From Proteus terrae (GTDB lineage Bacteria; Pseudomonadota; Gammaproteobacteria; Enterobacterales; Enterobacteriaceae), in NCBI RefSeq assembly GCF_003144325.1, contig NZ_PENS01000009.1, positions 62,001 through 126,000 on the forward strand: DNA of 64,000 bases, written 5' to 3'. The notes under the pieces are model-generated. The model did not search any database, was not told the origin of the DNA, and worked only from the letters and a program-made list of their open reading frames with translations. Shown in pieces: positions 34,539 to 64,000 of the stretch (positions are counted from its first letter, which is position 1; every line of letters begins with the position of its first letter). The position numbers and the translations under genes are program-made.

Positions 34539-35798
34539 ATGATGTTGTTTAAAGACTATAGTAAAAAATCCCTTTGGAATTTATCCATTATCGGGCTTTA
34601 CATTATATTGATCTACTTACCGGATATCACCCGTTATAAAAATATTGTGATGGGATTAATTGGTGCAACAGCGCTGTGGTATTTGGTGCGTGATTTTAAG
34701 ACTATCTGTAAGATATTTAAAAATAATCTGTCATTCTCACTGCTGTTTTTATTGCTGGTGATTGGTTATTCCATCGTGATTTCTGTCGAGCCCAGTATCA
34801 GTATAAAAGAGATTAATAAGCCGATACTCAATGGATTACTACTTTTTGCTATTACCTTTCCAATTGTACTGTATAAAGAAAAACCTGCTGATATAGCGAA
34901 GATGGTGATGGTCGCTTTTGCAATTGGGTTGTTGGTAATTATGGCTAAGGAGCTGGTGCAGTATTATTTGGAGTATCAGAGAAATGTTTTACCTTTTTCA
35001 TGGTGGAGTCAGAAATTACATCGAGAAGCTTCATATGAATTACTTTTCTTCTTTCCTATTATTTTAACCACTTGGAAATTAAAAAAAAACCATTCTATAA
35101 TTAACTGGTTATTATTTGTTATAACTTGCTTTTTATTTCTTTATATAATATTAGGTACTTTATCAAGAGGTACTTGGTTAACACTTGCAATAATTTCTTT
35201 TCTAATTTTTATTATTAATCGTCAATTACTCCTAATGATAATTAGTTTAATTATTTGCATTTTCTTATTTATTGGAGCAATAAAACCCCCTTCAGATTTT
35301 TTTATTAGTAATATACTACAACATAAATTAACCCAAATTAATAGTGGAAATAGGTTTGATAATGGCACCCAAGGCTCAGCGTTAGATCTTATTTTAGAAC
35401 AACCAATCAAAGGCTATGGTTATGGTAATCAGCTATATCATAATATTTATAATGAGCGAGTAAAAGACTATAAAAATTGGATAGTTAAAAAATCCATTGG
35501 CCCTCATAATATCTTTTTAGCTTTTTGGTTTGCTGGCGGTATTTTGGGGCTATTCAGTATTCTTTATTTTTGCTCTTCAATAATTGCCCAAGGTATCCAA
35601 CTAATAAGAAAAAACCAAGGGGTTATTCGTCAAGCTGCGTTGGTATTACTGATGTCCTTCTTAGGAGTTTATGTACTGCGAGGATTATTTGAAAATGCCT
35701 ATATCAATCAAGTGGGTATTTTGGTGGGGCTAATGTTGGCATTACGCCACGCTTTACTCAATAATCAATCCGTCACACCATCAGGTAAACAACAATAG
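34539..35798 (+). CDS. waaL: O-antigen ligase WaaL
   Basis: This 419-residue membrane protein has about 11 predicted segments and a periplasmic loop ending in GPHNIFLAFWFAGG, plus LGTLSRGTWLTL. These fit the Wzy_C/O-antigen ligase family. It joins polymerised O-antigen from undecaprenyl diphosphate to the lipid A core in the periplasm. The middle part is much more AT-rich than its flanks, which suggests past exchange. Its place in the core locus separates it from the O-antigen polymerase at 6.2 kb. Confidence 0.87.
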   Translation: MMLFKDYSKKSLWNLSIIGLYIILIYLPDITRYKNIVMGLIGATALWYLVRDFKTICKIFKNNLSFSLLFLLLVIGYSIVISVEPSISIKEINKPILNGLLLFAITFPIVLYKEKPADIAKMVMVAFAIGLLVIMAKELVQYYLEYQRNVLPFSWWSQKLHREASYELLFFFPIILTTWKLKKNHSIINWLLFVITCFLFLYIILGTLSRGTWLTLAIISFLIFIINRQLLLMIISLIICIFLFIGAIKPPSDFFISNILQHKLTQINSGNRFDNGTQGSALDLILEQPIKGYGYGNQLYHNIYNERVKDYKNWIVKKSIGPHNIFLAFWFAGGILGLFSILYFCSSIIAQGIQLIRKNQGVIRQAALVLLMSFLGVYVLRGLFENAYINQVGILVGLMLALRHALLNNQSVTPSGKQQ

Positions 35799-46372: not shown

Positions 46373-47236
46373 ATGATCCGTAGCATGACCGCTTTTGCTC
46401 GCCGAGACATCAAAAAAGACTGGGGTAGCGCTGCATGGGAACTACGTTCCGTCAACCAACGCTATCTTGAAACTTATATTCGTTTACCTGAGCAATTACG
46501 TAGTTTAGAGCCTGTTATTCGTGAACGTCTACGTAATCGCTTAACGCGCGGTAAAATTGAATGTAACTTACGTTTTGATCTTAATGCTCGCTTTCAAGGC
46601 GAACTTAATATTGATGAGAATTTAGCAAAACAACTGATTGTTTCTGCCAACTGGGTAAAAAGCCACAGCCATGAAGGGACTATCAGCCCATTTGATATTT
46701 TACGTTGGCCGGGTGTTATTTCCGCACAAGAGCAAGATTTAGATGCCATTGGTACTGAGCTTTTAGCTGAATTAGATTTAGCGATCGACGCCTTCATCGC
46801 AAGCCGTGAAGCAGAAGGGCAATCACTGAAAGTTCTTATCGAACAGCGTTTAGATGCTGTTTGCGAAGAAGTTGTTAAGGTGAGAGCACAGATGCCAGAA
46901 GTTTTACAATGGCAACGTGAACGTTTAACAAGCAAATTAGAAGAAGCTCAAGTTCAAATTGATAATAATCGTTTAGAACAAGAGTTAGTGATGTTAGCAC
47001 AACGTTTAGATGTTGCTGAAGAGCTTGATAGATTAGAAGCTCATGTTAAAGAAACACGAAAAATTCTTGTAAAAAAAGAAGCCGTAGGTCGTCGTCTTGA
47101 TTTTATGATGCAAGAATTTAACCGTGAATCCAACACATTAGCATCGAAATCAATTAATACTGAAGTCACTAATTCAGCCATTGAATTAAAAGTTTTAATT
47201 GAACAAATGCGTGAGCAAATTCAGAACATTGAATAA
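46373..47236 (+). CDS. yicC: YicC family endoribonuclease
   Basis: This 287-residue protein matches the YicC family from MIRSMTAFARRD to MREQIQNIE. The middle is coiled coil and the C-terminal domain has ETRKILVKKEAVGRRLDFMMQEFNRE with conserved acidic and basic residues. YicC proteins have been described as endoribonucleases, including in E. coli small-RNA turnover. The gene is divergent from rph. Its 3' end is a known insertion site for a class of mobilisable genomic islands in Vibrio and relatives, and here a tyrosine integrase gene begins 171 bases after its stop. Confidence 0.95.
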   Translation: MIRSMTAFARRDIKKDWGSAAWELRSVNQRYLETYIRLPEQLRSLEPVIRERLRNRLTRGKIECNLRFDLNARFQGELNIDENLAKQLIVSANWVKSHSHEGTISPFDILRWPGVISAQEQDLDAIGTELLAELDLAIDAFIASREAEGQSLKVLIEQRLDAVCEEVVKVRAQMPEVLQWQRERLTSKLEEAQVQIDNNRLEQELVMLAQRLDVAEELDRLEAHVKETRKILVKKEAVGRRLDFMMQEFNRESNTLASKSINTEVTNSAIELKVLIEQMREQIQNIE

Positions 47237-47407: not shown

Positions 47408-48631
47408 ATGGCATCAATGACCGCAAAGCAGGTGGCGTCACTTGCAAAATCAGGAGAGCCGACAAGAAAATCCGACGGAAAAGGACTCTACTTTGTCGTT
47501 CCAGACTCGGGAGCGCCCTATTGGGCCCTTCGATATAGTGGAAATGGCAAACGAAAACAAATGACTCTGGGTCAGTACCCTGATATGTCGTTGGCCGATG
47601 CAAGATCAGAAGCCGAAGTGTTTAAACGTGACTTAAGGCAAGGCGTAGATCCCCTCATTGCAAAACAGCGTCAAAAGTGGACTGGTATCATATCGGTCGA
47701 TGATTTATTTGAGGATTGGTATAAAAACGATTTAGCGCCAAGGCTAAAGCATCCCAACATTCCAGCTCGAATATATAGAAAGGAAATTAAGCCAGTCATT
47801 GGCGAATTCAAAATTCAGGACGTCACAGCTCTGGATGTTCGAGAGATAATTCAAAGAGTTAGGGATAGCGGCCGTCTAACCATTGCCAATGACACTCTGG
47901 GTTATATGAAGCAGCTTTTCAAGCACGCTTTAAAGCTTGGATTAACCGCCAATAATCCCGCTGCACCTTTCACAATAAACGATGCTGGAGGCCTTGAAAA
48001 CAGTTGTAAACGGGCATTAGATCTGGATGAAATCGAGAAAGTCTTTAAAGTATTTCGAAGCCATCTAAATAGCTTTGGTAGAGATAACTATTTGCTGTGC
48101 TGCCTCTTTTTGGTACTAGGTAACAGGAAGAGTGAACTATGTGAAGCTCCTTGGTGGGAATTTGACATGACAGAATCTGTGTGGCACATCCCCGAATCGC
48201 GGGTGAAAACTGGAATAGCTATTTCTATCCCTTTACCAACTCAGGCAATGGCATGGCTTAGTGAGCTCAAAGTAAGATCGATGGGCTCTGATTACGTTTT
48301 TCCTGCCAGACGCCGAAGCAATCTGTTACATATGGGACCTGATACCCTGAATAGCGCAATCTCAAAGTTATTTGGACGAGAAGCTGGGAGGAAGATTCAG
48401 CCCCCCAACGTAATGGGTGATATCGAGCATTTTACAGTACATGACTTACGGCGAACATTCAGGAGTCTCGCTGCATCAGTAGGAACACCAAATCACGTCG
48501 CTCGGTTGTGCATCAATCACAGGCAGGGAGGAGTTGACGGTATATACGATCGGTATGAGTACTTCAAAGAACGAAAAGTTGCTCACCAGAAAGTTGCCGA
48601 TCTAGTTACACCTCTCATTCAACTGGATTGA
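47408..48631 (+). CDS. int: P4-type tyrosine recombinase (integrase) of the mobile element
   Basis: This 407-residue integrase has the N-terminal arm-binding domain of the P4 family (KSDGKGLYFVVPDSGAPYWALRY, MTLGQYPDMSLADAR), then a core-binding region. The catalytic domain has Arg240 in LGNRKSEL, His345 and Arg348 in HDLRRTF, His371 in INHRQGG and a tyrosine at 380 or 383. It should catalyse integration and excision at the 3' end of yicC. AGGAG precedes the ATG. Base composition rises from here onward compared with the host genes, a sign of transfer. Its position mirrors that of yicC-targeting genomic islands known from Vibrio. Confidence 0.95.
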   Translation: MASMTAKQVASLAKSGEPTRKSDGKGLYFVVPDSGAPYWALRYSGNGKRKQMTLGQYPDMSLADARSEAEVFKRDLRQGVDPLIAKQRQKWTGIISVDDLFEDWYKNDLAPRLKHPNIPARIYRKEIKPVIGEFKIQDVTALDVREIIQRVRDSGRLTIANDTLGYMKQLFKHALKLGLTANNPAAPFTINDAGGLENSCKRALDLDEIEKVFKVFRSHLNSFGRDNYLLCCLFLVLGNRKSELCEAPWWEFDMTESVWHIPESRVKTGIAISIPLPTQAMAWLSELKVRSMGSDYVFPARRRSNLLHMGPDTLNSAISKLFGREAGRKIQPPNVMGDIEHFTVHDLRRTFRSLAASVGTPNHVARLCINHRQGGVDGIYDRYEYFKERKVAHQKVADLVTPLIQLD

Positions 48632-51880: not shown

Positions 51881-51915
51881 GTTACATGTCACACTTTACA
51901 TTCGTGACATGTAAC
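51881..51915. repeat. Perfect 12-bp inverted repeat
   Basis: GTTACATGTCAC (51881-51892) and GTGACATGTAAC (51904-51915) pair perfectly with an 11-base spacer. It lies between the cargo operon and the next unit. No T run follows, so a protein-binding site is more likely than a terminator. Confidence 0.55.
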
Positions 51916-52017
51916 GAAACATAAATATCTTTTTAAATTCATTTATATACGTTCAACCAGCAACACCAATCTAGGTCAAAACTTGGAAATTTTCTTCTGA
52001 CTCTACAGACAACACAT

Positions 52018-52046
52018 TTGTCCAAATCGGGCAGTTTGACGTGCCA
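52018..52046 (+). promoter_or_regulatory. Activator-box candidate, copy 1
   Basis: In gene direction the box reads TTGTCCAAA, two bases, GGGCA, one base, TTTG, and CGTGCCA with one change. The core GTCC-N5-GGGC is a near-palindrome. It ends 57 bases before the ATG at 52104. Two further copies stand at the same distance before other genes of the element. Confidence 0.7.
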
Positions 52047-52103
52047 ATCTCGGCAATTATCAGCGGGATAATGACTCCGTTCACTAAGCACGGAGTTATT
52101 TTT

Positions 52104-52490
52104 ATGAAGCTAAATGGTATTGAACTACTCAACCTAGCTGTAGCACATGAGTTAAAAGAAGTTTGGGTCGTCAGGTTAGATCCGCCCGATCAGCCCGGCA
52201 ATCGGGGGCCAGATGGTGACCTGCTCTGGCCGGAGGTTTTGCTGTGCAAAAGTTCTGACGATGCTACTCATTTGGCTGAGTATTTAAGCAAAGCAGCCTT
52301 TGATGATTTTTCTGATTTTATGGCCGCAGAAGAAGATGGGGAAATCCATTCAGAACCCCAGGACGCAGATCAGTACATAGTTGCGCTCTGTAAAAGCATT
52401 CAAAGGTACAGATACGCTTGGCTGGTAGAGCCGAGCATCAATAGCATCTCACAAATCACCTTGCTCAAGGAGGCTTTTCAACATGATTAA
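52104..52490 (+). CDS. Acidic hypothetical protein
   Basis: This 128-residue protein is acidic (for example DFMAAEEDGEIHSEPQDADQ) and has no signal peptide or membrane segment. Start ATG 52104 is chosen because GGAG lies 8 bases upstream and because an upstream GTG (52041) falls inside the activator box. It overlaps the next gene by 8 bases and begins a three-gene unit preceded by box copy 1. No family is recognised. A regulatory or accessory role in transfer is possible. Confidence 0.7.
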   Translation: MKLNGIELLNLAVAHELKEVWVVRLDPPDQPGNRGPDGDLLWPEVLLCKSSDDATHLAEYLSKAAFDDFSDFMAAEEDGEIHSEPQDADQYIVALCKSIQRYRYAWLVEPSINSISQITLLKEAFQHD

Positions 52491-53646
52491 AAAGTCATTG
52501 AGTTTGCTGGCCTTTACATTAATTGCATACTCAAACATTACACTTGCTCAAGAAAGCGCCACTGTGGGCCAAAAATCCTCACAGGAAAAGCGCACCCAAA
52601 AAGAAACCACGTTGAACGATGAGACAAGCATGGAGTTACAACGCCAAAAGGGAGAGGAAACAAGAAAAGGTGAGGAAAAAAGAGACACGACTTCCACGTC
52701 AGCTCGACATGCAAGCGAAGCATCATCTAGGCAGCAATATCAAAATGCTCGCCGTCTTTCAGTAAAAACAGCACCACTTTCTATTCTCATAGAGCTATTT
52801 GCCTATGTCGAAAAAGGCAAATCTATAAGAGGGAAAACAGCAAACCTCATCAGAAATTGTTCGCTCATTACAAACCCACAAGCGCCACAATTTCCAGAGC
52901 TAGAACCCAAACCCCTAGTTACAAGCGTGCAGGCCTGCATGGCCTGGAACAAAGAAAAAACACTGGGACAATGCCAAGTTGAGTTGCAGCAGGCAGCTTT
53001 CAACTGGGCGACCACTGGCATGCCTTCATCCATAAGAGTTCCATCTGAACGACTGAAAAAAGAAGGGGTTTGCTGGGCAGTCTACGGACTTGTAGCAGAA
53101 GCAACGCTGGATGAAATATCAAGCGGGATTTCGGTCAACGGAAGTGGCAAGTCAGCGATAAAAATGGCGCTTGCCAAGGCAATGAGTAAACAGCTCATAC
53201 GTAATGACTTACCAGAAAAGGCCTTGAAGATAGTAGATAGACAATTTGGAAGGAACTGTGTAGTGCCATCTACACGAGGGTATCAGTATGAAGGAAAATA
53301 CGAATGGTCTTGTGGCTCTTTTTCTGCTGATCCAAAAAATCTGTCAGCTTCAATCGGCGAGTTCACTGTCTTTGGCCGAGGAAACTCACTCTTTGGAGAG
53401 TCATGGGAGTTGGAGACATCATTAAATCACGACACTCTTTTTTCATTATCGACTACCAGAACTAACTCAAAAGAAGCATCAACGTCTAATGCTCATTATG
53501 CAAGTACCGACAACCGCTCATCCAAGTCCCGTAATCTTTCAATGAGAACTTCCGAGCGCTTACAAACTGAGGAAGCATCCAATCTCAGCAATTCCACGGA
53601 GGCAAGCTTCACAGTGTCTCAGCCAGGCATAAAAGGGGGTAATTAA
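52483..53646 (+). CDS. Secreted Ser/Thr-rich protein of unknown function
   Basis: This 387-residue protein has a clear signal peptide (MIKKSLSLLAFTLIAYSNITLA, cut before QES). A Glu/Lys/Arg-rich linker is followed by a central domain with paired cysteines (RNCSLI, SVQACMAW, GQCQVEL, EGVCWAVYG, RNCVVPS, WSCGSF) that may form disulfides in the periplasm. The C-terminal third is Ser/Asn/Thr-rich. AGGAGG precedes the ATG. It lies between the acidic protein and a small membrane protein in the box-1 unit. It could be a cell-surface or mating-pair component encoded by the element, but no family is recognised. Confidence 0.72.
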   Translation: MIKKSLSLLAFTLIAYSNITLAQESATVGQKSSQEKRTQKETTLNDETSMELQRQKGEETRKGEEKRDTTSTSARHASEASSRQQYQNARRLSVKTAPLSILIELFAYVEKGKSIRGKTANLIRNCSLITNPQAPQFPELEPKPLVTSVQACMAWNKEKTLGQCQVELQQAAFNWATTGMPSSIRVPSERLKKEGVCWAVYGLVAEATLDEISSGISVNGSGKSAIKMALAKAMSKQLIRNDLPEKALKIVDRQFGRNCVVPSTRGYQYEGKYEWSCGSFSADPKNLSASIGEFTVFGRGNSLFGESWELETSLNHDTLFSLSTTRTNSKEASTSNAHYASTDNRSSKSRNLSMRTSERLQTEEASNLSNSTEASFTVSQPGIKGGN

Positions 53647-53648
53647 AA

Positions 53649-54005
53649 ATGAAATCTGTACTGTATGGCATCATCATTGCCTGCCCAATAACAGCCATCG
53701 TGATCTACTTTGCCTTAACTGGTAGGCAGGAAGTTCTTATCCAACAAAAAACACATGAAGTTCAACAACAAATTCGCTCGGAAGAGTTTCATCGTGACTT
53801 CTCCAAGGCCTGGGCTGAGTTTGATCTACCCAACCAGCATGATAAGGCCCTTCTCTCGTCGGAAAATGCTGAACGAAACGAGCGAATAAAACAGCTCAAA
53901 AAACTTCGCTCTCAATTGGAAGCGGATAACGGTGAGTCAATGGATGACCTCAAAGGAGACTTAGCAGAGATGAGAAAAGCGTTAAAGGAAGCTGATAAAA
54001 ATTAA
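53649..54005 (+). CDS. Small membrane-anchored coiled-coil protein
   Basis: This 118-residue protein has one N-terminal membrane helix (VLYGIIIACPITAIVIYFAL) and a highly charged, probably coiled-coil remainder (NERIKQLKKLRSQLEADNGE). It is 2 bases after the secreted protein, and the pair probably work at the envelope. No family is recognised. It resembles in size and shape small membrane proteins of conjugation loci, but that is only suggestive. Confidence 0.65.
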   Translation: MKSVLYGIIIACPITAIVIYFALTGRQEVLIQQKTHEVQQQIRSEEFHRDFSKAWAEFDLPNQHDKALLSSENAERNERIKQLKKLRSQLEADNGESMDDLKGDLAEMRKALKEADKN

Positions 54006-54012
54006 ATCAAAA

Positions 54013-54060
54013 GCCACATTCTTACCTTCTGCCTATATGTAGTAGTAAACGGAATGTGGC
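54013..54060. terminator. Possible bidirectional terminator
   Basis: GCCACATTC (54013-54021) and GAATGTGGC (54052-54060) pair with a 30-base loop, between two convergent genes. Flanking A and T runs are modest. Confidence 0.4.
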
Positions 54061-54073
54061 CTTCCAATTTTAT

Positions 54074-54751
54074 CTATGTTTCATTCTTTTCAGTAAATGA
54101 ACGATATGCGGCACAGTATGCGTCCCGCTCTAATATTGCGTCTCTTATAAACGCAGGATATAGCTTAAGTGCAGCACAGTAAGACTCCCAGTATATGCCT
54201 TCTGTTCCTCTTGGATTTTCTGGCACACCACTCTTTACTATATCCAGAGCTTGTTCTGCGGTGAAAGTTATTCTATGAGTTTCCAACTCTTCAACATTGG
54301 CAACGATCACGCGGCCATTTTCTACTAATTTTATAAATGGCTGTAAGGTTAAGCATATTGGCTCGAACTGGTCCCAGCGCAACATTTCAATTCGTCCATC
54401 ACTACTTTTAATAAACCGGCTAACATCCGTTTCAAACATACATCGTTCTGCTGATGAATACGGAGCAGGTGGTTTATACCCTAAAACTTGCTCCCGCCAT
54501 TTTATGTAGTCGTTTTTACAATCACTGTAACTAAACTGCTGGCTGCGCCTTATTTTTAAGCACACATCTATATCACCAAATTTTTCACCACCTCTAGCCA
54601 AACTGCCGACTAATGCAGCCTCTTCTATTTCATAGTAGGAAGAGTAAAGCTCATTCCAATCATTTAGCCTTTCTAAAACACCTTGCAGCTTTTTGTAAGC
54701 AACTGCTTTGCTTACCTTAGATCTATAGTTCTTTGGCACGGCAATCCTCAT
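54074..54751 (-). CDS. Nucleotidyltransferase-domain protein
   Basis: This 225-residue protein carries the minimal nucleotidyltransferase signature GSLARGGEKFGDIDVCL: a GS motif followed by the DxD metal pair. The rest has no recognised family. Proteins of this fold include antitoxin-like AMP transferases, abortive-infection effectors and antibiotic adenylyltransferases. It stands alone, converging on the box-1 unit and separated from the lipoprotein gene by a terminator. A defence or toxin-antitoxin role is possible; an antibiotic-modifying role is less likely because no known resistance-enzyme motifs are seen. Confidence 0.72.
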   Translation of the reverse strand: MRIAVPKNYRSKVSKAVAYKKLQGVLERLNDWNELYSSYYEIEEAALVGSLARGGEKFGDIDVCLKIRRSQQFSYSDCKNDYIKWREQVLGYKPPAPYSSAERCMFETDVSRFIKSSDGRIEMLRWDQFEPICLTLQPFIKLVENGRVIVANVEELETHRITFTAEQALDIVKSGVPENPRGTEGIYWESYCAALKLYPAFIRDAILERDAYCAAYRSFTEKNET

Positions 54752-54824
54752 ATTATGGTCATTAGAAGCACCTTTACTCGAACATACACCAAAGCCGGAT
54801 AAATTTTAAGCCACCATAAATGAC

Positions 54825-54852
54825 AAAAAAGGCAGGTTAATCTGCCTTTTTA
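54825..54852. terminator. Intrinsic terminator between the lipoprotein and nucleotidyltransferase genes
   Basis: AAAAAAGGCAG pairs with CTGCCTTTTT across a 6-base loop. The A and T runs on both sides allow use in either direction; leftward it ends the operon of the lipoprotein gene. Confidence 0.85.
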
Positions 54853-54872
54853 AAGTGGGATGGGAATGATTA

Positions 54873-55262
54873 TTATTTTGCCTTATCCGGTTTGAGCGCT
54901 ACAAGTTCCTCTAATGGGCTTGGCCCTGTCAAGCTATAATTAATCACAGCCGGATTATTGTAACGAACATCAGAGAGGTCCAGATGTAATCCCACTTGGC
55001 TCTCTCCGGTTACATCCTCCAGGCAATGTCGAGATTCCATATCAAGAGCAGCCATATATTTCTCTTCATTACTTTGAGGGCCGAGCGCCATGGTAATAAG
55101 ACAGTCTTTTCCATGCTCAATCTTGTAAGTAACATTAATAGTGTCACCACTTGCTGGGAACTTAAAAACCATAAGTGAAGCGTCGTTAATTCCAGGCTTT
55201 GTCGCACACCCAGCCAAAGAGAGCATAGATGCGGTAGCCACTGCTAAGATTGCTTTTTTCAT
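54873..55262 (-). CDS. Small lipoprotein
   Basis: This 129-residue protein has a lipoprotein signal (MKKAILAVATASMLSLAGC) with Cys19 as the lipidated residue. A compact domain follows with the cysteines DCLITM and HCLEDV. Start 55262 is set by GAGGAA just upstream; a longer frame would hide the signal. It is the last gene of a leftward unit that begins at 56603. Envelope lipoproteins are common in conjugation and entry-exclusion systems, but no family is recognised here. Confidence 0.72.
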   Translation of the reverse strand: MKKAILAVATASMLSLAGCATKPGINDASLMVFKFPASGDTINVTYKIEHGKDCLITMALGPQSNEEKYMAALDMESRHCLEDVTGESQVGLHLDLSDVRYNNPAVINYSLTGPSPLEELVALKPDKAK

Positions 55263-55293
55263 TTCAGTTTCCTCATTTTCTTGAATGTAATTC

Positions 55294-56106
55294 TCAACGA
55301 CCAATTGACTGGTTTTTGTCGCGGTCGATTCTTTTTTCACTGTGTTGCTGGTGCTGAATTGACGATGCAGCTTGGCGTTCTTTTTCTCTCGATTGAGCCT
55401 GGGATATGGATTTTTGATGTTCTGGGCGAGGTTGATATTGGCTGTACTCTTTCTTGGCAGAATGAGATAGCTTGTTATAGGTACTAACTATCAGCTTATC
55501 AGCCTCCTTCTGTTGGCCGCTTTGTTCCAACCGTTTGGCATTGCTTATCGCATCTGACATCAGTTCATGCCGCTGTTCTGTTTTGACCTCTAGTCGAAGG
55601 CGGGATAACTCAACACCTAGCGCCTTTGTCATTTTCCCAATATCTTTTTTTAGCTCCTGGGCAGCTTGTTGCTGCTTAGCGTTATCTGACTCAAAAAAGA
55701 TTTTCTGGATAGCCTTTGCAGCCATCCACACCATGGCTCCTGCTGCTTCAGTGAAAATATCGTTCTCCAGATAACCTCTTTGATAGTTAGAAAGCGTTTT
55801 AGATAGCCAGTTATCTTGAGTTGGTTTATCGAGCCCCATGCTTTCAACCTGCTTCATTAGCAACTGGACAGAATCAACAATTTTCATCTGCTGCTCAGAT
55901 AGCTGTCGATACTGCTCATTCATGTGAGCATGATCAAAAACGCTAGTTTTAATCTGCTCATCTTTAATAGGATGACTATTCATACTTTGCACAATTGACT
56001 TAGCCGCCGATTCAAGCTGTCCAACCAACTTGTTAGGGTCAGAGACATCAGCTTTGCTAAGTTCTTGATAGAGCGCCGCAACTTTCGCTTTTTCGTTCAA
56101 TTCCAT
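55294..56106 (-). CDS. Coiled-coil hypothetical protein with a hydrophobic segment
   Basis: This 270-residue protein is mostly helical and charged, with one hydrophobic stretch in the middle (FTEAAGAMVWMAAKAIQKIFF) and a C-terminal tail rich in Gln, Arg, Lys and Ser (QPRPEHQKSISQAQSREKE). The tail is of the type seen at the ends of some relaxase-associated proteins. It follows the small protein ending at 56119 with a 12-base gap and is part of the unit from 56603. No known family is recognised. Confidence 0.65.
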   Translation of the reverse strand: MELNEKAKVAALYQELSKADVSDPNKLVGQLESAAKSIVQSMNSHPIKDEQIKTSVFDHAHMNEQYRQLSEQQMKIVDSVQLLMKQVESMGLDKPTQDNWLSKTLSNYQRGYLENDIFTEAAGAMVWMAAKAIQKIFFESDNAKQQQAAQELKKDIGKMTKALGVELSRLRLEVKTEQRHELMSDAISNAKRLEQSGQQKEADKLIVSTYNKLSHSAKKEYSQYQPRPEHQKSISQAQSREKERQAASSIQHQQHSEKRIDRDKNQSIGR

Positions 56107-56118
56107 TCCAGTTACCTC

Positions 56119-56346
56119 TTAATGACGATGTTTTACATGTAGATTTCCATTAACCCACTCTGCGCTAATGAAATTATTGGGCTCGGTAATGTGTTCAAAG
56201 TGGCTAGCTGACGCCTCTATATCTGCATGAAAGCGCTCGATCTCAGCCTGATAATTCCGAATTTCAGCCACAAGGTTGGATAGTTGAGAGTACAGATCAG
56301 GCTTGGGCTCTCTTCTGAAGATTTTTCTGAAAATACTGGTAATCAT
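56119..56346 (-). CDS. Small hypothetical protein
   Basis: This 75-residue protein begins MITSIFRKIFRREPKPDLY and contains a short coiled-coil stretch (QLSNLVAEIRNYQAEIERFHADIE). Its start overlaps the stop of the preceding gene by 4 bases (ATGA), which fixes the start at 56346. No family is recognised. Confidence 0.65.
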   Translation of the reverse strand: MITSIFRKIFRREPKPDLYSQLSNLVAEIRNYQAEIERFHADIEASASHFEHITEPNNFISAEWVNGNLHVKHRH

Positions 56347-56603
56347 TGAGTGCCGCCTTGATACCAAGAAGCAATAGGTTCGAAGTGATCTCCCCACTCC
56401 ATGATCTTCAAAAAGTCATCGGTGTTATCGACTCTGGCAAGTCCACAATATGTTTTCGTGTATCGACCATCGAGACACTTCAATACAGTGAAATGAAGAG
56501 GTTCACCAGACGCTGCTCTTGCAGCGGTTACGCCTCGTCTTTGATGAATGTGAGCATCATTTATTGGAAGTACCAGTCCGTTCAATTGAATCTCTGCCGC
56601 CAT
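56343..56603 (-). CDS. Small hypothetical protein
   Basis: This 86-residue protein has the stretch LNGLVLPINDAHIHQRRGVTAARAA and a C-terminal EWGDHFEPIASWYQGGTQ. No signal peptide or family is seen. It opens a leftward unit of four genes and has the second activator box 63 bases before its start, right after a terminator. GAGG precedes the ATG. It may be an accessory protein induced for transfer. Confidence 0.65.
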   Translation of the reverse strand: MAAEIQLNGLVLPINDAHIHQRRGVTAARAASGEPLHFTVLKCLDGRYTKTYCGLARVDNTDDFLKIMEWGDHFEPIASWYQGGTQ

Positions 56604-56665
56604 AGTGTCCTCATTTATCTCTACTCTCTTTGAGCTAATATTTTCTCAGGTGAGCAAGCTTTAGA

Positions 56666-56694
56666 TGGCACGCCAAAGTGCCCAATTTGGACAA
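56666..56694 (-). promoter_or_regulatory. Activator-box candidate, copy 2
   Basis: On the leftward strand this box reads TTGTCCAAA, two bases, GGGCA, one base, TTTG, then GCGTGCCA. It has the best match to the shared pattern and ends 62 bases before the ATG at 56603. A terminator stands just upstream, so the box starts a fresh transcription unit. Confidence 0.72.
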
Positions 56695-56717
56695 AAAAGA
56701 AAGGGGCCTGAGCCCCT
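56690..56717 (-). terminator. Intrinsic terminator after the 507-residue lipoprotein gene
   Basis: On the leftward strand AGGGGC and GCCCCT pair over a 4-base loop and are followed by a T-rich tract (TTTCTTTTTT). It ends the lipoprotein transcript right before activator box 2. Confidence 0.8.
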
Positions 56718-56750
56718 AAAAGAATGAGTGGAGAAGTTGAATTCGATGAT

Positions 56751-58274
56751 CTAGCGTTTGTGTTCGCCAGCTTCTATCTGTTCGCGAGAAAAGACAGTGG
56801 GACAACGTGACAGATCCGGTTTTCCATAACCATTCACAGCCTCTGATCTGCTGCATATGTAGGCATCAAACCGACCTGCGGCTTGCATCATTTTTTCCTT
56901 GGCCTTCATTGACTCGCTTGCCTTTTCTAGGTAATCACAGGCAGGATAAGACCACGTTGCGAGTCCTGAATGGCCTGCCGCATATGTAGAGCAGGTTTCC
57001 CGCTCCATGACTTTCTCTGTGTAACTTGCAATACCACTTCCTTTTTTCTGGAGTTGAGTCTGAATAGTTGAGTTGTGCTGGTACGGACCGGGATAGCTCC
57101 AATACGGCACCTGATAGTTGTTGAATGCAGGAGAGTACACCGACATAAACCCACGAAGACCCTCGCTTTCGCCAGCAATGTAATCAGCAACACGTTTCCA
57201 GTTACCGTCTGTCCATTTCAAACAGTGGTAACCCCCATTCGTTTGACGAGGTTTAGCTCCCAGCGCGATAGCGAGCTCATCAATTTCGATGTCACTATCC
57301 TGGCTGCTACTACCTGTACCAAACGCTGCACACATACCACCCACGTGCATTACGGAGATGACACTGGAGCGCCCAATTGCGAACGGTCTGATATCAAACG
57401 CATCAAAGTAGCCAGTTCGTTGATAATTATAGAAGTTGGCAGCAATCATATTCATTGCTCCAGATCTGGATTGCATGTTTAACACATCACGAGACATTTT
57501 AAGCGCACTATCCCAACCAACCCGCGACGCCGCTGCCGCAATAAGGCTGCCCATCACATCATTATCATGAGCCGAGATAGTGTATTGAACAGATGAAACA
57601 GGAGTCCGCACTGCACAGTATTCGTAATATTCATTAAAGGCTAGATCCTTACGCGCTTGTGGAGCGGCTGTATTGTGGTTCACCAAGAATTTATCCAAGC
57701 TCAGTTCCTGACCGTTCTCCGTACACTCACTACCTCCGTTAATTAGACAACGCTCATAAAGCTCAACCGTGCTTTTGAAAGAGGCAACATTGGTAAGCGC
57801 ATAATGGCTGATGAAATCGTCTACTGAGAACATTTGACCAGAATCATTGAAGCAATCATGGAATCCGTACTCCATGCCCTTATCTGCTTCGTCGGAATAG
57901 CGATCTATTTTTGAAAAATTCACCTTCCTTTCTATTTGGCGTCGCTCATCGTTGGCTGTACGAATGCACTCCAGGGCTGCTGATTGATAACCGGGCTCTA
58001 GCAACGCCTCGGTCCAAGAATTGAAGGTTTGCCACTCGGCACCTAAATTTGCCACCATCTTAGCTGCTGAGTTGAATGCCTCCTCACTGCCGAAGTCTTC
58101 CTGTCTGAATCCAACGAGTTTCATGTCGGTTAGTGCCGCCTGGATGTCAGGCTCTGTTTTTTCAGTTTTTTGGACCGACGTATCTGTCTTAGTCTTGCCG
58201 GCGATGTTAGGCATGGTCGCGGAGCAACCTGCCAGTGCAGTCATTACAACGATTGACGTAAAAAGAACTTTCAC
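56751..58274 (-). CDS. Large lipoprotein of unknown function
   Basis: This 507-residue protein starts at GTG 58274, with GGGAG upstream, giving a lipoprotein signal (VKVLFTSIVVMTALAGC) whose Cys17 would be lipidated. The mature part has scattered cysteines (for example YEYCAVR, GGMCAAFG and YHCLKW). A C-terminal segment ends in SRCPTVFSREQIEAGE. It is outer-membrane or periplasmic. It follows traI and has its own activator box (copy 3) 61 bases before the start. No family is recognised. It may be a surface or entry-exclusion protein of the transfer system. Confidence 0.75.
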   Translation of the reverse strand: MKVLFTSIVVMTALAGCSATMPNIAGKTKTDTSVQKTEKTEPDIQAALTDMKLVGFRQEDFGSEEAFNSAAKMVANLGAEWQTFNSWTEALLEPGYQSAALECIRTANDERRQIERKVNFSKIDRYSDEADKGMEYGFHDCFNDSGQMFSVDDFISHYALTNVASFKSTVELYERCLINGGSECTENGQELSLDKFLVNHNTAAPQARKDLAFNEYYEYCAVRTPVSSVQYTISAHDNDVMGSLIAAAASRVGWDSALKMSRDVLNMQSRSGAMNMIAANFYNYQRTGYFDAFDIRPFAIGRSSVISVMHVGGMCAAFGTGSSSQDSDIEIDELAIALGAKPRQTNGGYHCLKWTDGNWKRVADYIAGESEGLRGFMSVYSPAFNNYQVPYWSYPGPYQHNSTIQTQLQKKGSGIASYTEKVMERETCSTYAAGHSGLATWSYPACDYLEKASESMKAKEKMMQAAGRFDAYICSRSEAVNGYGKPDLSRCPTVFSREQIEAGEHKR

Positions 58275-58319
58275 TTTTAGATCTCCCTTTTGGTTCTGTA
58301 TCCATTCCATTTTTAAATA

Positions 58320-58356
58320 AAAGGGCAGTCTAGCTAGTACGCCAAACTGCCCTTTT
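58320..58356 (-). terminator. Hairpin after traI that overlaps the activator box
   Basis: AAAAGGGCAG (leftward strand, from 58355) can pair with CTGCCCTTTT, followed by AT-rich sequence. It could end traI transcripts; because it includes half of activator box 3, the two functions may be linked. Confidence 0.5.
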
Positions 58357-58363
58357 TGGACAA
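58335..58363 (-). promoter_or_regulatory. Activator-box candidate, copy 3
   Basis: On the leftward strand this box reads TTGTCCAAA, two bases, GGGCA, one base, TTTGG, then CGT with a drifted end. It ends 60 bases before the GTG at 58274. Its GGGCAG can also pair with CTGCCC just downstream, so it overlaps a hairpin after traI. Confidence 0.65.
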
Positions 58364-58373
58364 TGGACTGCAA

Positions 58374-61300
58374 TTATCTTGTTAGACTGCGTTCACTGTC
58401 GCCTCTTGATATACCTTTAGCCTGAGATTTACCAGTTGTCTGCGTTGACGAGCGTCCTGACTCTGGTTGTTGCCATAGCTTATCAATCAAGTGATCCAGC
58501 GGTTCCAGAGACTGGTAACGGCTTTCCTTAGCCGTCTGTTTTTGACCTGAACGCTGCTCCACAGCTCGGACAAACCCTTCCGTTGAATCGGTGTATAGAT
58601 ACACGCGGTCCTTTGCTCTTGATATCTGCACGTAGAACTGTTCCGTGTTCAATAAAGCTTCCCGGTTGGTTTCGGCGTGCACAAACACGTTCTGGGCTGT
58701 CTTACCTTGGGCAGCATGAACCGTCATGGCGTAACCGTGATCCCAATGGGAATTAGCCAGTTTGGACATGTCAAACTCACCAGTTTTACCATTTGAAAGT
58801 CTGAAGGTTACGTTCGTGCCTTCTATCTTCTCAACTGTGGCCGTGTCATTGTTCAATCGTCCAGTTGGCTTATCATTATCACGCCACACGATCTTCTCAC
58901 CAACGGCCAAGCCACTTTCAGTTAGTTCGAACAACTGGATGTTCTTGGCCGCATAGTTTTCAGGAGAGAAGCGAATCAGCTCAGCCTGCTCATTGGCCCC
59001 GAACTTCTTAAGCAAGATATCGTGGTTATCTCGACCAACAACCTGATAATACAGGCCCTTCTTGATGCCCTCACGCTTGAAGCTACGCGCAAACCGGACG
59101 ATTTGCCCATTTTGATACGATGTCACCACACGCCGTTCAGCTTCGGTTGCATCGACTGGTGATAGCTGGTTAGTATGCAGCTCTTCGCCCAGAGCACCTT
59201 CTTTTTTAAGGGCATCACGAACTAATTCATTCGTGCGACGTCGGCCCTCACGGCTTGGTTCGAGGATAATACTTTTGGCTCGTTCATCCGGCGCAAGAGC
59301 CATGTAGTCCTTCACAAGCTCTTGTCTGCGGACTTCACCGCTTTTCTCATGGTCAATTTTTCCACTTTTCTTATGCGCGACCAATTCTTTTATCGTGCTG
59401 CCACTCTCCTGTAACCGAGAGAGAGCATTAGAGGCTTTTTTCATTAGGGAGAGATATACCGCATCCCTTGTGCCTCGGTTCGTCTGCCGAACGATTTCCT
59501 CTAGTCGATATGTTTCCATTCCATGAGCCTGAAGCTGACGAAAGGCAGCACCAGCCTCCACAGAAGCAAGCTGGCGGACGTCACCAGTCAACACAACCCT
59601 AGCACCGACCTGTCTAGCTCTTTGAAGTAGATCGCGCATCAATTTTGTACCGATCATAGATGCTTCATCAACAATCCAAAGTTGAGGGGACCGCTGCATT
59701 CCCTTAGCTAACTCCTCCCGTTGACTTTTTAACTCTGTTTGTTCGTAACAAAGTTCATCGAGTCGCTTTTGGTAAATGGGAGAGGTTTTAGGGATCTGAG
59801 CACCAGTTTTTAGGTCTACTCCTGGGTTTTCAAGGGCCTTCTTGATCCGATCCAGCCGTCTGTCTATTCTCTCTACTTGGGCGATCAGTCGTTTCTCTTC
59901 TACCCATTCATTGCGATTTTGTCCCAGAAAACTTTGGATTGTACTGGAGGGAATATTCGCGCCCTCAGATAAACTTTGAGCAGCCGAGTTAGTTGGAGTA
60001 AGACCTCTTACTTCGTACCCCATAACTCGTGCTTTTCCAGCAACAGTGCTGAGCACGGAGTTGGTTTTAGCTGTACCAGCTAATCCTTGCACTCCAACGA
60101 TCCGATTCTCGGAGAGAAGAATGCCCTCTGTAGCTTTCCTTTGGTCAGCGTTCCACTCGTATCCCAATTCGTTGGCTTTCTCCTCGGCATTAGAAATGGC
60201 CTCAGCCGCCTGTTCCCGGCTGCACAATGCCTGAACTCGGTCGCGGCCAAGGTATTCCTCCTTGATCACCTCATCCTCGATGGCGATGGCCGCTTTCGAC
60301 GTATATCCCCGCACATCAATCTCTTGCTTGCTGACCTTATTAAAGGTTCTAACCGACTTCTCTATGAGCTGACCACTGCGAATTGCAGCATCAATTGCAT
60401 TCGTTACATCAGAAAGTAATACTCGCGATCCGGCATAACGGCTAGCCACTTTGACTAGATCGTGGTGTGCCCAAGACGTATCACGTTCTCCAAGGTGCTC
60501 AGTCGCCCACATGACGGCTTCGTTGGCTAATTGAACCCGCGCCAAAATCGCCTCGGATTGCCGCTCTAGGCTTGGAATGTTCTTCCGTGACAGAGCTATT
60601 ACTTCTTTCAACTCGGTCAGCTTCTCAGAGCTGATTTCAGCATGCCAGCGTTCAAGAAGTTCACCCCGTTCTGCCTGAACCTTTCTATCCCGAGTGTCTA
60701 GAGTAGCAGCCTCTTTCTCGGCGGCTGTAGCCGTGTCTCTGGTTTTTCCACGGGCTTCCAAGGCATCCCCAATAGCCTCTGAACGCTTCGAGAATTCATG
60801 GACAACATCTTTATCAAGGCCTGTAATTTCCCAAGTTCCATCTTTTGCATGATCCAGGCTATACCCCAAAGAGCGCACCTCTTCAGCGAGATATTGCCGA
60901 TAAACGAGGCCTAAGTACTTCTGATCAACAAAGAGGGGCTTGTTCTCAGTGGAACGCCACTGCCCATCACCGCGCTGTGTTATGTTCATCAGGACGCAAT
61001 GAGTATGGAGCTGTGGGTCGAGGGCGCGACTGGTTGTGTGCTTGAAGGTGGCGGCCACCATCGAGCCGGTTTTTTCGTACTCGACTCTATTCTCGAACCG
61101 GTTACGGTTCCTAGTAACAATATATTCCTGTTCTATATAGCGCAGAGCGGCGTGCACGGCCTTATCGTGGGCGCTCAGTAACCTTTGATCACCAGCAATT
61201 TCAGCCAGAATAGAAACACTCTTGGGCGCTGAGAAGGTTACATCCGTTCCTGGTTGATGCTTCCACTCACCATCTCTGATAGTTCCAACTCTCTGCCCAT

Positions 61301-61481
61301 CGGGAAGCTGGCCTTCCAAAAGAGATTTGAAAGTTTCTCGCTGCACGTCTCCTGATAAACCTAACGCTTCTGCTCCCGAGCCAACCCACTCAGACGGAGA
61401 CAGGCCATCGACATAATAATCGTCTTTTTCAAAGTAATGACCTGCCTGCGAGGCACTTTTTATTGCTTTGGGTGACATCAT
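58374..61481 (-). CDS. traI: MOBF conjugative relaxase-helicase (TraI/TrwC-like)
   Basis: This 1035-residue protein nicks oriT and unwinds the transferred strand. The relaxase domain has tyrosines at 16, 22 and 23 and the metal-binding histidines 148, 159 and 161 (FKHTTSRALDPQLHTH). The helicase domain has a Walker A variant GLAGTAKT (466-473), Walker B WIVDEAS and the motifs MTVHAAQGKTAQN and YVQISRAKDRVYLY. The length is close to TrwC and IncN TraI and much shorter than F TraI, which has extra domains. It overlaps the coupling-protein gene by 4 bases, with AAAGGAGG upstream. It is the main transfer enzyme of the element. Confidence 0.95.
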   Translation of the reverse strand: MMSPKAIKSASQAGHYFEKDDYYVDGLSPSEWVGSGAEALGLSGDVQRETFKSLLEGQLPDGQRVGTIRDGEWKHQPGTDVTFSAPKSVSILAEIAGDQRLLSAHDKAVHAALRYIEQEYIVTRNRNRFENRVEYEKTGSMVAATFKHTTSRALDPQLHTHCVLMNITQRGDGQWRSTENKPLFVDQKYLGLVYRQYLAEEVRSLGYSLDHAKDGTWEITGLDKDVVHEFSKRSEAIGDALEARGKTRDTATAAEKEAATLDTRDRKVQAERGELLERWHAEISSEKLTELKEVIALSRKNIPSLERQSEAILARVQLANEAVMWATEHLGERDTSWAHHDLVKVASRYAGSRVLLSDVTNAIDAAIRSGQLIEKSVRTFNKVSKQEIDVRGYTSKAAIAIEDEVIKEEYLGRDRVQALCSREQAAEAISNAEEKANELGYEWNADQRKATEGILLSENRIVGVQGLAGTAKTNSVLSTVAGKARVMGYEVRGLTPTNSAAQSLSEGANIPSSTIQSFLGQNRNEWVEEKRLIAQVERIDRRLDRIKKALENPGVDLKTGAQIPKTSPIYQKRLDELCYEQTELKSQREELAKGMQRSPQLWIVDEASMIGTKLMRDLLQRARQVGARVVLTGDVRQLASVEAGAAFRQLQAHGMETYRLEEIVRQTNRGTRDAVYLSLMKKASNALSRLQESGSTIKELVAHKKSGKIDHEKSGEVRRQELVKDYMALAPDERAKSIILEPSREGRRRTNELVRDALKKEGALGEELHTNQLSPVDATEAERRVVTSYQNGQIVRFARSFKREGIKKGLYYQVVGRDNHDILLKKFGANEQAELIRFSPENYAAKNIQLFELTESGLAVGEKIVWRDNDKPTGRLNNDTATVEKIEGTNVTFRLSNGKTGEFDMSKLANSHWDHGYAMTVHAAQGKTAQNVFVHAETNREALLNTEQFYVQISRAKDRVYLYTDSTEGFVRAVEQRSGQKQTAKESRYQSLEPLDHLIDKLWQQPESGRSSTQTTGKSQAKGISRGDSERSLTR

Positions 61482-63454
61482 GATTTTTTGCCTCCTTTCC
61501 CAAGCAGACCAAATACCAAATCATCATCCATTCCGACCGTTCCCAATACTGAATGTACTTCCTGCTCAATGTCACTTGGGCTTGGCACTTGCTCTTTAGG
61601 CTCATCAGTAGCCTGCGCGTTAGAAAGTTCTTTCGGAACAAAGTCAGTATCAGATTCCATTTTCATTGTTCTTGCGGCATTGAGCAGACGCATACCAACA
61701 GTCTCATTCTCATCACCTTGAATAAAACCGTCAGCGATCTTTGGAAGTCTCAAGAAAGGAATATCAATACGGGCTTTACTCTCCACGCCCCAAATTTTGG
61801 CAAAACAAGACAAATCAGGCAGGTCCATGATTTCACTGGGAAGAACAATTTTTCGGTTTTGGCGTTTAGAACTGACCCGAACACCGTCTCGAATGTCATC
61901 GGCGGAGTAGTTTAAGTCTTCATCAACTTCCTCACGCTCAGCTTCACCAAGTACTTTGGAGACCCACTCAGCTGTGTCGGCATTATTCAAACGAAAATGA
62001 AACTGTGTGGAGCACAGGCCAAGTATGGTTTTAGAGGTATTTCTTCCAAACTCTTCCTCTAGCTGGTTTATTTCCTGAATACCCAAAACAACAGCCGCAC
62101 CGAAGCCCCGCCCTTCGGCCATCAACATTGAAAGAGCAGGAATTTTTTTGAGGCTTGGTAGCTCATCGACAACAATCCAAAGAGTTCGCTCGTTATTAAC
62201 CCCACGCGCCATCAACCCTTTGGCCGCAGCTTGTATCCACGTTGAGATGAGAGGTTTCTGTATTTCTATTTCAGATTCACGTACTGGTAAGAATAACCAA
62301 CTATCATCGGCATTAGGTTCATCGCCTTCTGCTATCCAATCTCTTATAGAAAAGAACCCCTTTTTATTCTCTTCTTTCAACAGGCGAAGTGGACGAACAC
62401 CATCTACGATGGTTGAACGAATACTTTCGAGAGTTCTCTCGTTATCTTCATTGAAATATGTCGCTGCTGGAGTACCTGCAACTAGTTCTTTGAGTAACTC
62501 AAGATCATTCCACGCTGTCGCCCGAAGAAGTGAAAGCAATGACTTCGGTCCGTCTAGATATAAATTCTGAAGTGCGGCAGAAACAACTGCTCTGGCTGCG
62601 GATGTGAAGAATTTATCAGAACCACTGTTACTATTAGAACTAGGTAAAAGTGTCTCAGCTATCCAGTCTGCATCAAATGGTGAGGCCATTTCTTCCCATG
62701 GAGTCCATTGGTGTGAGCGGCTATCTGCCGGATTGAGTATGTGATCAATTCCGTCCCGATAGAACATCTCTACGAACTCGCCTTTCTTGTCATACACCAC
62801 GGCTCGGTCTCCACGAGCGCGAATAGCTTTAAGCAAATGAGTAAGTGCTGTAGATTTACCTGCCCCGGTGGTGCCACTAATCAAGGCATGCTTTTTTGAA
62901 AATCCTGTGGGTAAAGGGAAATCGCCGAGGGTTAAATCAGAAACACCATGCTTTTCTACGATTTCTCCTTTCAATTTTTCGGCTGAAACAAGTTTCGCAC
63001 CTCGAATATATTTGTCTTCTTTGATCTCCTCACCTCTCTTAACTGCCTTCACAACAAGATAAACACCAATAGGCAAGTACAATACAAAGAGCGAAATGAA
63101 AGCCCATCCAAAGGATTTGAGAAGCTTAACAGCAGCTTCCCGGAATAGTGGTTCATTTATCACCACAGAGGATGGCAGAGAGTCGCGCCCATCTAGGGCA
63201 ACACAGGTTCCTACAGTTACGCTTGAAAATGGTTGTACTAGTCCCTTCAATTGTGCCCAAATATATGTATTAGCGTTTTGCAAGACACATTTATCAGCGT
63301 CTATCCCGATGTATAACAGGCCACCGACAATCGCCAACAAAACACCAGGCAGAAAGATCCAAACTCCGCTGAATAACAACATCTGCTGGCTATGAAGCCA
63401 TGTGTCCGCACCACGAACAAAGTCACCGACTCGACCTTTTCTAATCGTTGCCAT
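61478..63454 (-). CDS. traD: Type IV coupling protein (TraD/TrwB-like)
   Basis: This 658-residue membrane ATPase couples the relaxosome to the secretion channel. It has two N-terminal membrane segments (about residues 26-50 and 114-137), the Walker A motif GTTGAGKST at 194-202 and Walker B WIVVDELPS. The signature GRGFGAAVVLGIQEINQLEE is also present. The C-terminal tail is acidic, as in F TraD. Start 63454 (MATIRKGRVG) is set by GGAGGGG upstream and overlaps the ribbon-helix-helix gene. No pilus or channel genes are seen in the window, so it would need a partner channel or genes beyond the edge. Confidence 0.93.
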   Translation of the reverse strand: MATIRKGRVGDFVRGADTWLHSQQMLLFSGVWIFLPGVLLAIVGGLLYIGIDADKCVLQNANTYIWAQLKGLVQPFSSVTVGTCVALDGRDSLPSSVVINEPLFREAAVKLLKSFGWAFISLFVLYLPIGVYLVVKAVKRGEEIKEDKYIRGAKLVSAEKLKGEIVEKHGVSDLTLGDFPLPTGFSKKHALISGTTGAGKSTALTHLLKAIRARGDRAVVYDKKGEFVEMFYRDGIDHILNPADSRSHQWTPWEEMASPFDADWIAETLLPSSNSNSGSDKFFTSAARAVVSAALQNLYLDGPKSLLSLLRATAWNDLELLKELVAGTPAATYFNEDNERTLESIRSTIVDGVRPLRLLKEENKKGFFSIRDWIAEGDEPNADDSWLFLPVRESEIEIQKPLISTWIQAAAKGLMARGVNNERTLWIVVDELPSLKKIPALSMLMAEGRGFGAAVVLGIQEINQLEEEFGRNTSKTILGLCSTQFHFRLNNADTAEWVSKVLGEAEREEVDEDLNYSADDIRDGVRVSSKRQNRKIVLPSEIMDLPDLSCFAKIWGVESKARIDIPFLRLPKIADGFIQGDENETVGMRLLNAARTMKMESDTDFVPKELSNAQATDEPKEQVPSPSDIEQEVHSVLGTVGMDDDLVFGLLGKGGKKS

Positions 63455-63797
63455 TATCGTCCCCTCCAATAAAGTGAGAACGCAGAGCATTTGTGCGCGC
63501 TGAAATGACCTGTTTAGCCTCAGCCATTTCATCCTCAGAGCAGGTCTTTTTGAGCAGAAAATCTGTGGTTGCCACGTTGATCGACAGCAGGTTAATTAAC
63601 TGCTGATAAATCTCCTTCTGATCCACTTGTACATTTCTGATTTCGCTCAATGTTGAGTCATTATTTAACGCCTGTTCGATCAAAGACACCGCCGTTTTAC
63701 TAACCGTTTGCCCCGATTCTTTAGCTAATTCCTTCAACAAAATATGTACTTGCCTAGGTGGATATATTTGTACGCGATACGCCTTAGAAACTCCCAT
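63441..63797 (-). CDS. Ribbon-helix-helix relaxosome accessory protein (TrwA/TraY-like)
   Basis: This 118-residue protein has an N-terminal ribbon-helix-helix-like segment (KAYRVQIYPPRQVHILLKELAKESGQTVSKTAVSLIEQALN) and a helical C-terminal part. Such proteins bind oriT and help the relaxase nick. The order accessory protein, coupling protein, relaxase is that of trwA-trwB-trwC in R388. GGGGGA precedes the ATG. It lies just beside the oriT candidate at 63845-63999, and probably also represses its own promoter there. Confidence 0.85.
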   Translation of the reverse strand: MGVSKAYRVQIYPPRQVHILLKELAKESGQTVSKTAVSLIEQALNNDSTLSEIRNVQVDQKEIYQQLINLLSINVATTDFLLKKTCSEDEMAEAKQVISARTNALRSHFIGGDDNGND

Positions 63798-63999: not shown

Positions 64000-64000
64000 T

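Follow-up and report, generated by a model that had tools for sequence, protein, structure and literature searches.

Predicted AcaCD-type operators and a divergent AcaC-like gene on an island at yicC in Proteus terrae

What switches on an island whose transcription units are preceded by one and the same box? The question is raised by a mobile element inserted at yicC in Proteus terrae, which begins in the 64,000-nucleotide stretch of DNA analyzed here (the window; contig C37:62001-126000) and extends past its end into L002, where position p corresponds to window position 64000 + p. A preliminary description of the window had pointed to three copies of a 29-bp box, each ahead of a different unit, and had suggested an activator of the FlhDC family, such as AcaCD of IncC plasmids or SetCD of SXT/R391 elements. 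Seven such boxes were found on the element; they look like operators of AcaCD-type class II promoters, and the element appears to carry a divergent relative of AcaC itself.

Seven boxes with a fixed promoter layout

The three 29-mers were found where they had been described (52018-52046, 56666-56694, and 58335-58363), with the common pattern TTGTCCAAA-NN-GGGCA-N-TTTG and ending, as counted by hand, 57, 62, and 60 bases before the start codons ATG 52104, ATG 56603, and GTG 58274. We used the box in several registers: this 29-mer, the 28-mer of published AcaCD sites, a 25-mer, and a 19-mer core with 16 fixed bases. A scan of the 4,098,142-base genome with the 19-mer gave 6 exact, 0 one-mismatch, 7 two-mismatch, and 38 three-mismatch places; with up to 3 mismatches a reversed-pattern control gave 12 + 12 places genome-wide, versus 21 + 30 for the true pattern. 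The six exact copies are all on C37 between 114020 and 137197 (23.2 kb), that is, on the element and not scattered through the host. The count of three boxes was thus correct but incomplete, as three more exact copies lie past the end of the window, along with a diverged seventh, one of the 38 three-mismatch places, before an excisionase-type gene.

In the 28-mer register, box 1 (52015..52042, plus strand, 22.7 bits with the matrix described below) precedes the unit 52104-54005 and is followed by a −10-like GATAAT at 52067-52072. Box 2 (56670..56697, minus strand, 26.9 bits) precedes the small-protein unit 56603-55294, and box 3 (58339..58366, minus strand, 20.2 bits) lies between the traI stop and the gene for a 507-aa lipoprotein; 24 bp downstream of them stand −10-like GAAAAT and AAAAAT, respectively. 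Past the window, box 4 (L002:729-756, minus strand, 29.5 bits) precedes the lipoprotein gene L002:201-665, which heads the TraD/TraI unit; box 5 (L002:7916-7943, plus strand, 24.1 bits) precedes genes of 195, 130, and 703 aa; box 6 (L002:11174-11201, plus strand, 28.9 bits) precedes a gene of 140-142 aa; and box 7 (L002:12079-12106, plus strand, 24.4 bits) precedes the excisionase-type helix-turn-helix gene L002:12170-12409.

All seven boxes aim at a start codon 59-74 bp away (25-mer end to start), and in every one of the seven promoters a hexamer NNNAAT stands exactly 24 bp after the 28-mer. The triplet AAT was selected after the promoters had been viewed; of 20,000 letter shuffles, none reached five boxes with AAT at any offset from 10 to 39. 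We compared six box-bearing elements, the window's included (that of Shewanella carassii was seen only in four pieces); of their 30 distinct box reads, 28 have NNNAAT at this 24-bp spacing, the two exceptions being a backwards read of box 2 of G669 and a GCCC-type box of Shewanella indica (TAAACT). Flanks and spacers differ between the copies within an element. Across elements, the 24-bp spacer of box 5 has a mean identity of 54%, with its length kept, versus 94% for the box and 91% for the −10; the corresponding figures for box 7 are 56%, 80%, and 100%, while boxes 1 and 3 are conserved at almost all positions and hence uninformative. In SGI1, AcaCD promoters have their −10 at 22-24 bp past the site and no obvious −35, according to the part of the report consulted (PMC5058578). 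By eye, the 13 IncC sites introduced below show no comparably uniform hexamer at a single offset; the rigid 24-bp spacing therefore seems to be a feature of this island's branch.

Boxes 1 to 5 and 7 are present in all six elements and box 6 in five. In the S. indica element (L084/L085), which gave no match to the box 6 gene, the place of box 6 is taken by a GCCC-type AcaCD-like box (23.3 bits; position 34864 of the joined reverse complement).

For comparison with AcaCD operators, a 28-column matrix was built from sites of one IncC plasmid (pP99-018), seeded with seven published sites of SGI1 and MGIVmi1; the MGIVmi1 site before VMD_06480, published as not regulated, was omitted from the seed. 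The scan was iterated, and its second round retained 13 of 33 matches, namely those 15-140 bp before a start, so that the choice of IncC sites reflects the seed matrix and the distance to starts in a hand-typed, incomplete list rather than chromatin immunoprecipitation data. With this matrix the seven boxes score 20.2-29.5 bits, compared with 17.9-26.5 bits for the IncC sites themselves (leave-one-out), and the best score in 114 kb of host DNA is 15.4 bits. Box 4 read backwards has the top backwards score on this element, 19.9 bits, just below the 20-bit cut; the tally of box reads across elements (43 reads) omits those below 19.95 bits. Conversely, when a matrix of the seven boxes was run on the plasmid, sites of the IncC set filled 7 of the top 8 places, with the site ahead of the gene divergent from traI ranking first. 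The IncC consensus GCCC is replaced by GTCC in all seven boxes, a variant also present at 3/13 IncC sites. In the published text consulted on AcaCD operators of IncC plasmids, SGI1, and MGIVmi1 (Carraro 2014, PMC4207636; Muranyi 2016, PMC5058578), the sites share with these boxes the core G(C/T)CC-AAA-WW-GGGCA, the 28-bp extent, the distance to the start codon, a −10 about 24 bp downstream, and the control of mobilization and excision genes. Judged by the matrix in both directions and by the −10 spacing, the AcaCD half of the suggested FlhDC-family reading is supported.

An AcaC-like gene past the window end

According to the preliminary description no activator gene is present, which is true of the window; it does not hold for the element, which has a gene of the AcaC/FlhC family, encoding 188 aa, at L002:7042-7608 (minus strand), 7 kb past the window end. 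A longer 211-aa frame was used as the query of a first tblastn search of plasmids, and the 188-aa frame for a second, spread listing of matches. With an E cut-off of 1, the 211-aa frame matched 1,052 plasmid records, the best of them at 8e-6; among the matches listed, an FlhC-family annotation was carried by all of the best 20 and by 36 of 40 in the spread listing, and one plasmid record counted in these searches has 60-80% identity to the protein. AcaC of an IncC plasmid as query finds the gene in all six elements at 24-28% identity (E, 5.7e-8 to 8.6e-12, with those elements alone searched), and a profile of the AcaC-like proteins aligned to a profile of five plasmid AcaCs with an E of 8.9e-13 over 141 columns. 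The protein retains the TYKQ(I/V)R stretch, which we guess contacts DNA, and the cysteine pairs of AcaC. A search of PDB sequences gave no FlhC match. For the protein of Vibrio injensis, the best of five AlphaFold models had a mean predicted local distance difference test score (pLDDT) of 66.3 (the others, 43.4-60.7). The three top PDB matches returned for it by Foldseek are FlhC chains from the FlhDC complexes of E. coli and Cupriavidus, 2avu_E (E, 8.9e-4), 8j56_C (3.4e-3), and 8j56_F (7.4e-3), one of them below an E of 0.001; the next match has an E of 0.67.

The gene is intact in all six elements, its products being 78-98% identical to that of the window's element. The ratio of nonsynonymous to synonymous substitution rates (dN/dS) is 0.08-0.25 in 14 of 15 pairs, which indicates purifying selection, and 0.40 in the closest pair (8 changes). 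A partner gene was sought by tblastn with AcaD on the six elements, and none was found at E up to 1. In the P. terrae genome a model of FlhD matches only contig C34, and the AcaC query finds only the AcaC-like gene and the FlhC gene on the same contig C34. Among 392 genomes of the family, two have a match to the AcaC-like protein: this one and G138, with a 32% FlhC-like match. On sequence and model comparison, the gene thus appears to encode a divergent member of the AcaC/FlhC family, with a predicted FlhC-like fold and without a recognizable AcaD partner.

Between the gene and box 5 lies an AT-rich stretch (L002:7845-7905) with the palindromes TAATTATCATAATTA and TTACGATAATACCGTAA; its box-side 45 bp are kept at 94% between elements, versus 54% for the box 5 spacer, and it is possibly an operator governing the AcaC-like gene.

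Which activator would use the boxes

From the boxes, their spacing and −10-like hexamers, the conservation, the matrix match, and the AcaC-like gene, all read from sequence, we infer binding, activation, a helper, and a pairing of the AcaC-like protein with AcaD. We think it probable that the boxes are AcaCD-type operators of class II promoters, that AcaCD of a helper wakes the island, and that the island's own C subunit joins in with the helper's AcaD. Without a helper, the seven promoters would be quiet. The trigger would most likely be an incoming conjugative plasmid of the IncC, IncA, or related (ACL) type that makes AcaCD. An FlhDC-family complex on the 28-bp site would replace the −35 element, with sigma70 RNA polymerase using the −10 fixed 24 bp downstream, and the seven promoters (those of the TraD/TraI unit, the excisionase-type gene, and five other units) would be coupled, coming on when the activator appears. 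With the excisionase-type gene and TraD/TraI expressed, the island would leave the chromosome and employ the mating pore of the helper. Its AcaC-like subunit would most likely pair with the helper's AcaD, by analogy with the SGI1-like island IMEVchUSA3, which has no sgaD and whose SgaC is proposed, in the text consulted, to pair with plasmid AcaD and to be needed for efficient transfer (Durand 2021, PMC8409611).

Several observations weigh against this reading. The matrix of the seven boxes ranks only 9 of the 13 IncC-set sites within the first 25 places of the plasmid. The box 25-mer was not found within 1 mismatch in any of seven IncC, IncA, and ACL plasmids scanned, and 2-mismatch sites were found in three of them; an AcaCD-type helper was not seen in this genome. 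As two AcaCD-motif promoters of IMEVchUSA3 reportedly did not respond to AcaCD, a motif match is no proof of response. On the side of the protein, no Pfam or NCBIfam match was found at E up to 1, the confidence of the structure model is modest, and the 24-28% identity to AcaC is far under the 64-85% quoted for SgaC proteins in the text consulted (PMC8409611), which makes pairing with AcaD uncertain.

It is possible, though we doubt it, that AcaCD of the helper acts on the boxes alone and that the AcaC-like protein serves otherwise, for instance as a decoy, as an inhibitor, or in the control of other promoters. The match of the boxes to the IncC matrix is as good as that of the plasmid's own sites, and the protein is highly divergent and has no recognized partner gene; however, the gene is intact and under purifying selection in all six elements, and its product has kept the TYKQ(I/V)R stretch and cysteine pairs of AcaC. 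At the other extreme, the AcaC-like protein, alone or with the FlhD of the host, might wake the element, which would need a helper only for its mating pore. The element does carry the gene itself, the six main boxes have a tail of their own in common, contig C34 of the host encodes FlhC and FlhD, and some activation of helper transfer genes by SgaC alone has been reported (text consulted of PMC8409611). Yet the same text gives SgaC alone as insufficient for rdfN expression, and the boxes match AcaCD-type sites, whereas the FlhDC motif is different by published description, and we regard such self-switching as improbable. SetCD of SXT/R391 elements is a highly improbable activator: MGIVflInd1, which uses SXT-type helpers, is also found at yicC, and SetCD promoters are likewise class II, but the SetCD motif, judged here by its description, is reported in the sources consulted to differ drastically from that of AcaCD, while the boxes fit an AcaCD-type matrix. 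The SetCD half of the earlier suggestion is considered unlikely on these published statements only. Near-identical copies at several places of one element could, finally, be a dispersed repeat, transposable or structural, with no role in transcription. We rejected this: each of the seven faces a start codon 59-74 bp away and keeps a constant distance to a −10-like hexamer, the flanks and spacers of the copies are unlike, and no copy with 0 or 1 mismatch is found elsewhere in the genome.

The switch might also have two tiers, although we put this forward only tentatively and think it rather unlikely. The excisionase promoter would answer AcaCD of the helper, and the others would be tuned to the island's AcaC-like protein with a borrowed D subunit. 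The box of the excisionase promoter has a plain AcaCD-like tail ending in GAG in all six elements, and the other promoters have a TTTG(G)CGTGCC-like tail ending in CGT in 35/35 reads (six groups of orthologous boxes); these counts leave out the backwards read of box 2 of G669 and the GCCC-type box of S. indica (43 − 2 = 35 + 6). Against the idea, the CGT end that marks six of the seven boxes is also found at 4 of the 13 IncC sites, including the one before traI. Were it true, the island would represent a new FlhDC-family branch, one that uses an operator variant of its own.

The island, its relatives, and published systems

The element measures about 29.6 kb, from the 3′ end of yicC, where the left attachment repeat lies (47213..47236, plus strand), to a repeat of the yicC end beyond the window (L002:12807-12830); both were read by eye and have 21 of 24 bases in common. 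Beside yicC is a tyrosine integrase gene (47408..48631, plus strand). The box 1 unit (52104..54005, plus strand) encodes an acidic protein, a 387-aa protein, and a 118-aa protein, and the box 2 unit (55294..56603, minus strand) encodes proteins of 86, 92, and 270 aa. The box 3 unit is the 507-aa lipoprotein gene (56751..58274, minus strand; GTG start at 58274), whose product has no family match in Pfam, NCBIfam, or PHROGs. The box 4 unit runs, in order, through the genes for the lipoprotein already mentioned, a 130-aa protein, a 118-aa ribbon-helix-helix protein (63441..63797, minus strand; its Pfam match is under the cut-off), an F-type TraD coupling protein of 684 aa (61478..63532, minus strand), and TraI, a MOBF relaxase-helicase of 1035 aa (58374..61481, minus strand). 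No mating-pore gene was recognized among the element proteins scanned, a few small open reading frames being outside that scan. PHROGs gave no match for 9 of the 10 element proteins submitted, and a search of phage records gave none.

Several further features were noted. The three box 5 genes (L002:8020-11148) resemble a pilus subunit, a chaperone, and an usher by eye; they have weak family matches below the cut-offs only, none of them to pilus, chaperone, or usher families, and no PHROG match, and the structure model of the 703-aa product has a pLDDT of 30. At L002:4702-4783, three overlapping 40-nt repeats with a 21-bp spacing lie, iteron-like, beside RepA/RepC-like genes; the related island of E. 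coli EC50 has instead a gene annotated "replication protein P", which indicates that the replication module varies among related islands. Of the six islands, that of the window alone has a 540-aa gene with a divergent DNA methylase gene (L002:1518-4508), perhaps restriction-modification cargo. Elsewhere in the genome, a 903-aa open frame has a weak TraC-type match (G000:C6:43189-43542; 27% over part of the query), perhaps from another conjugative element.

Also at yicC, the EC50 relative is 97.1% identical over 93% of the query window:47300-63800 and was the only one found among 5,426 E. coli genomes; with up to 2 mismatches allowed, its attachment repeat does not occur in the window or in L002. 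yicC lies beside the integrase gene in the three of six elements for which the insertion site was determined, those of the window, EC50, and V. injensis. Scanning genome contigs with the 25-mer gave 13 stretches, 11 of them in S. carassii, S. indica, and V. injensis; the remaining two, single matches in metagenome-assembled genomes (CAIPYM010000046.1 and JAPLKJ010000200.1), were set aside, as neither genome has the AcaC-like gene at E 0.001. When 394 genomes of the order were scanned at up to 2 mismatches, six boxes were found in this genome and in G669, and a third gave a single weak match. A 2-mismatch match in G695 was read as chance, as were 18 stretches of viral contigs with one 19-mer match each. 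All six elements have TraD, TraI, and the proteins encoded by box units 1 to 5 (S. carassii being seen in pieces); five have the box 6 product, three the window-type integrase, three the window-type excisionase gene, and two RepA and RepC. No relative of AcaB was found on the six elements, nor one of Sfx at E up to 1 (S. carassii in its four pieces only).

The closest published parallel is the group of IEVchAut1-type islands (Rivard 2024, PMC11493245), described in the text consulted as located at yicC, with TraD, a MOBF TraI, an RdfM-like factor, and predicted AcaCD sites, and as likely mobilizable by ACL plasmids, with mechanistic parallels to SGI1 drawn; related islands are found at other sites in Shewanella. 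Common to these islands and the one described here are the yicC 3′ end, TraD with a MOBF TraI, an excisionase-type gene, and predicted AcaCD sites. In contrast, sfx, the bait that defined the group, was not found in our six elements, and we therefore do not file the island as a strict IEVchAut1-type member, although its core is alike. IEVchAut1 is also said to have a lambda-P-like protein, as annotated in EC50, whereas the window's island has RepA/RepC-like genes and the 21-bp repeats. For IEVchAut1, an AcaC-like gene is not mentioned in the text consulted; the words sgaC, FlhC, SgaCD, and FlhDC do not occur in the main text of PMC11493245, and no report of an AcaC-like gene on IEVchAut1-type islands was found in the literature consulted, supplements being outside its scope. 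By the text consulted of PMC8409611, IMEVchUSA3 is likewise a mobilizable island with AcaCD-type promoters and an FlhDC-family C subunit without a D partner, but the relaxase of the window's island, unlike that of IMEVchUSA3, is of the MOBF type. MGIVflInd1, controlled by SetCD of SXT/R391-type helpers, resembles it in inserting at yicC and in sensing its helper by an FlhDC-family activator, and differs, as far as the published text consulted goes, in its operator motif and in its dependence on the relaxosome of the helper at a mimic of the origin of transfer (PMC4344509).

The island group and the idea of its control by AcaCD are already published, and both the predicted operators and the island that bears them are of known kinds; relative to the published text consulted, what is new is the divergent AcaC-like subunit on this island branch. 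According to published abstracts, drug resistance is spread by IncC plasmids and the islands riding on them. Much of the island described here appears to be wired to the activator of its helper. Related islands can be recognized in sequence data by the signature of box plus spacing, and the divergent C subunit, which lacks a D partner, bears on the pairing range of AcaD and on the evolution of operator preference in the FlhDC family.

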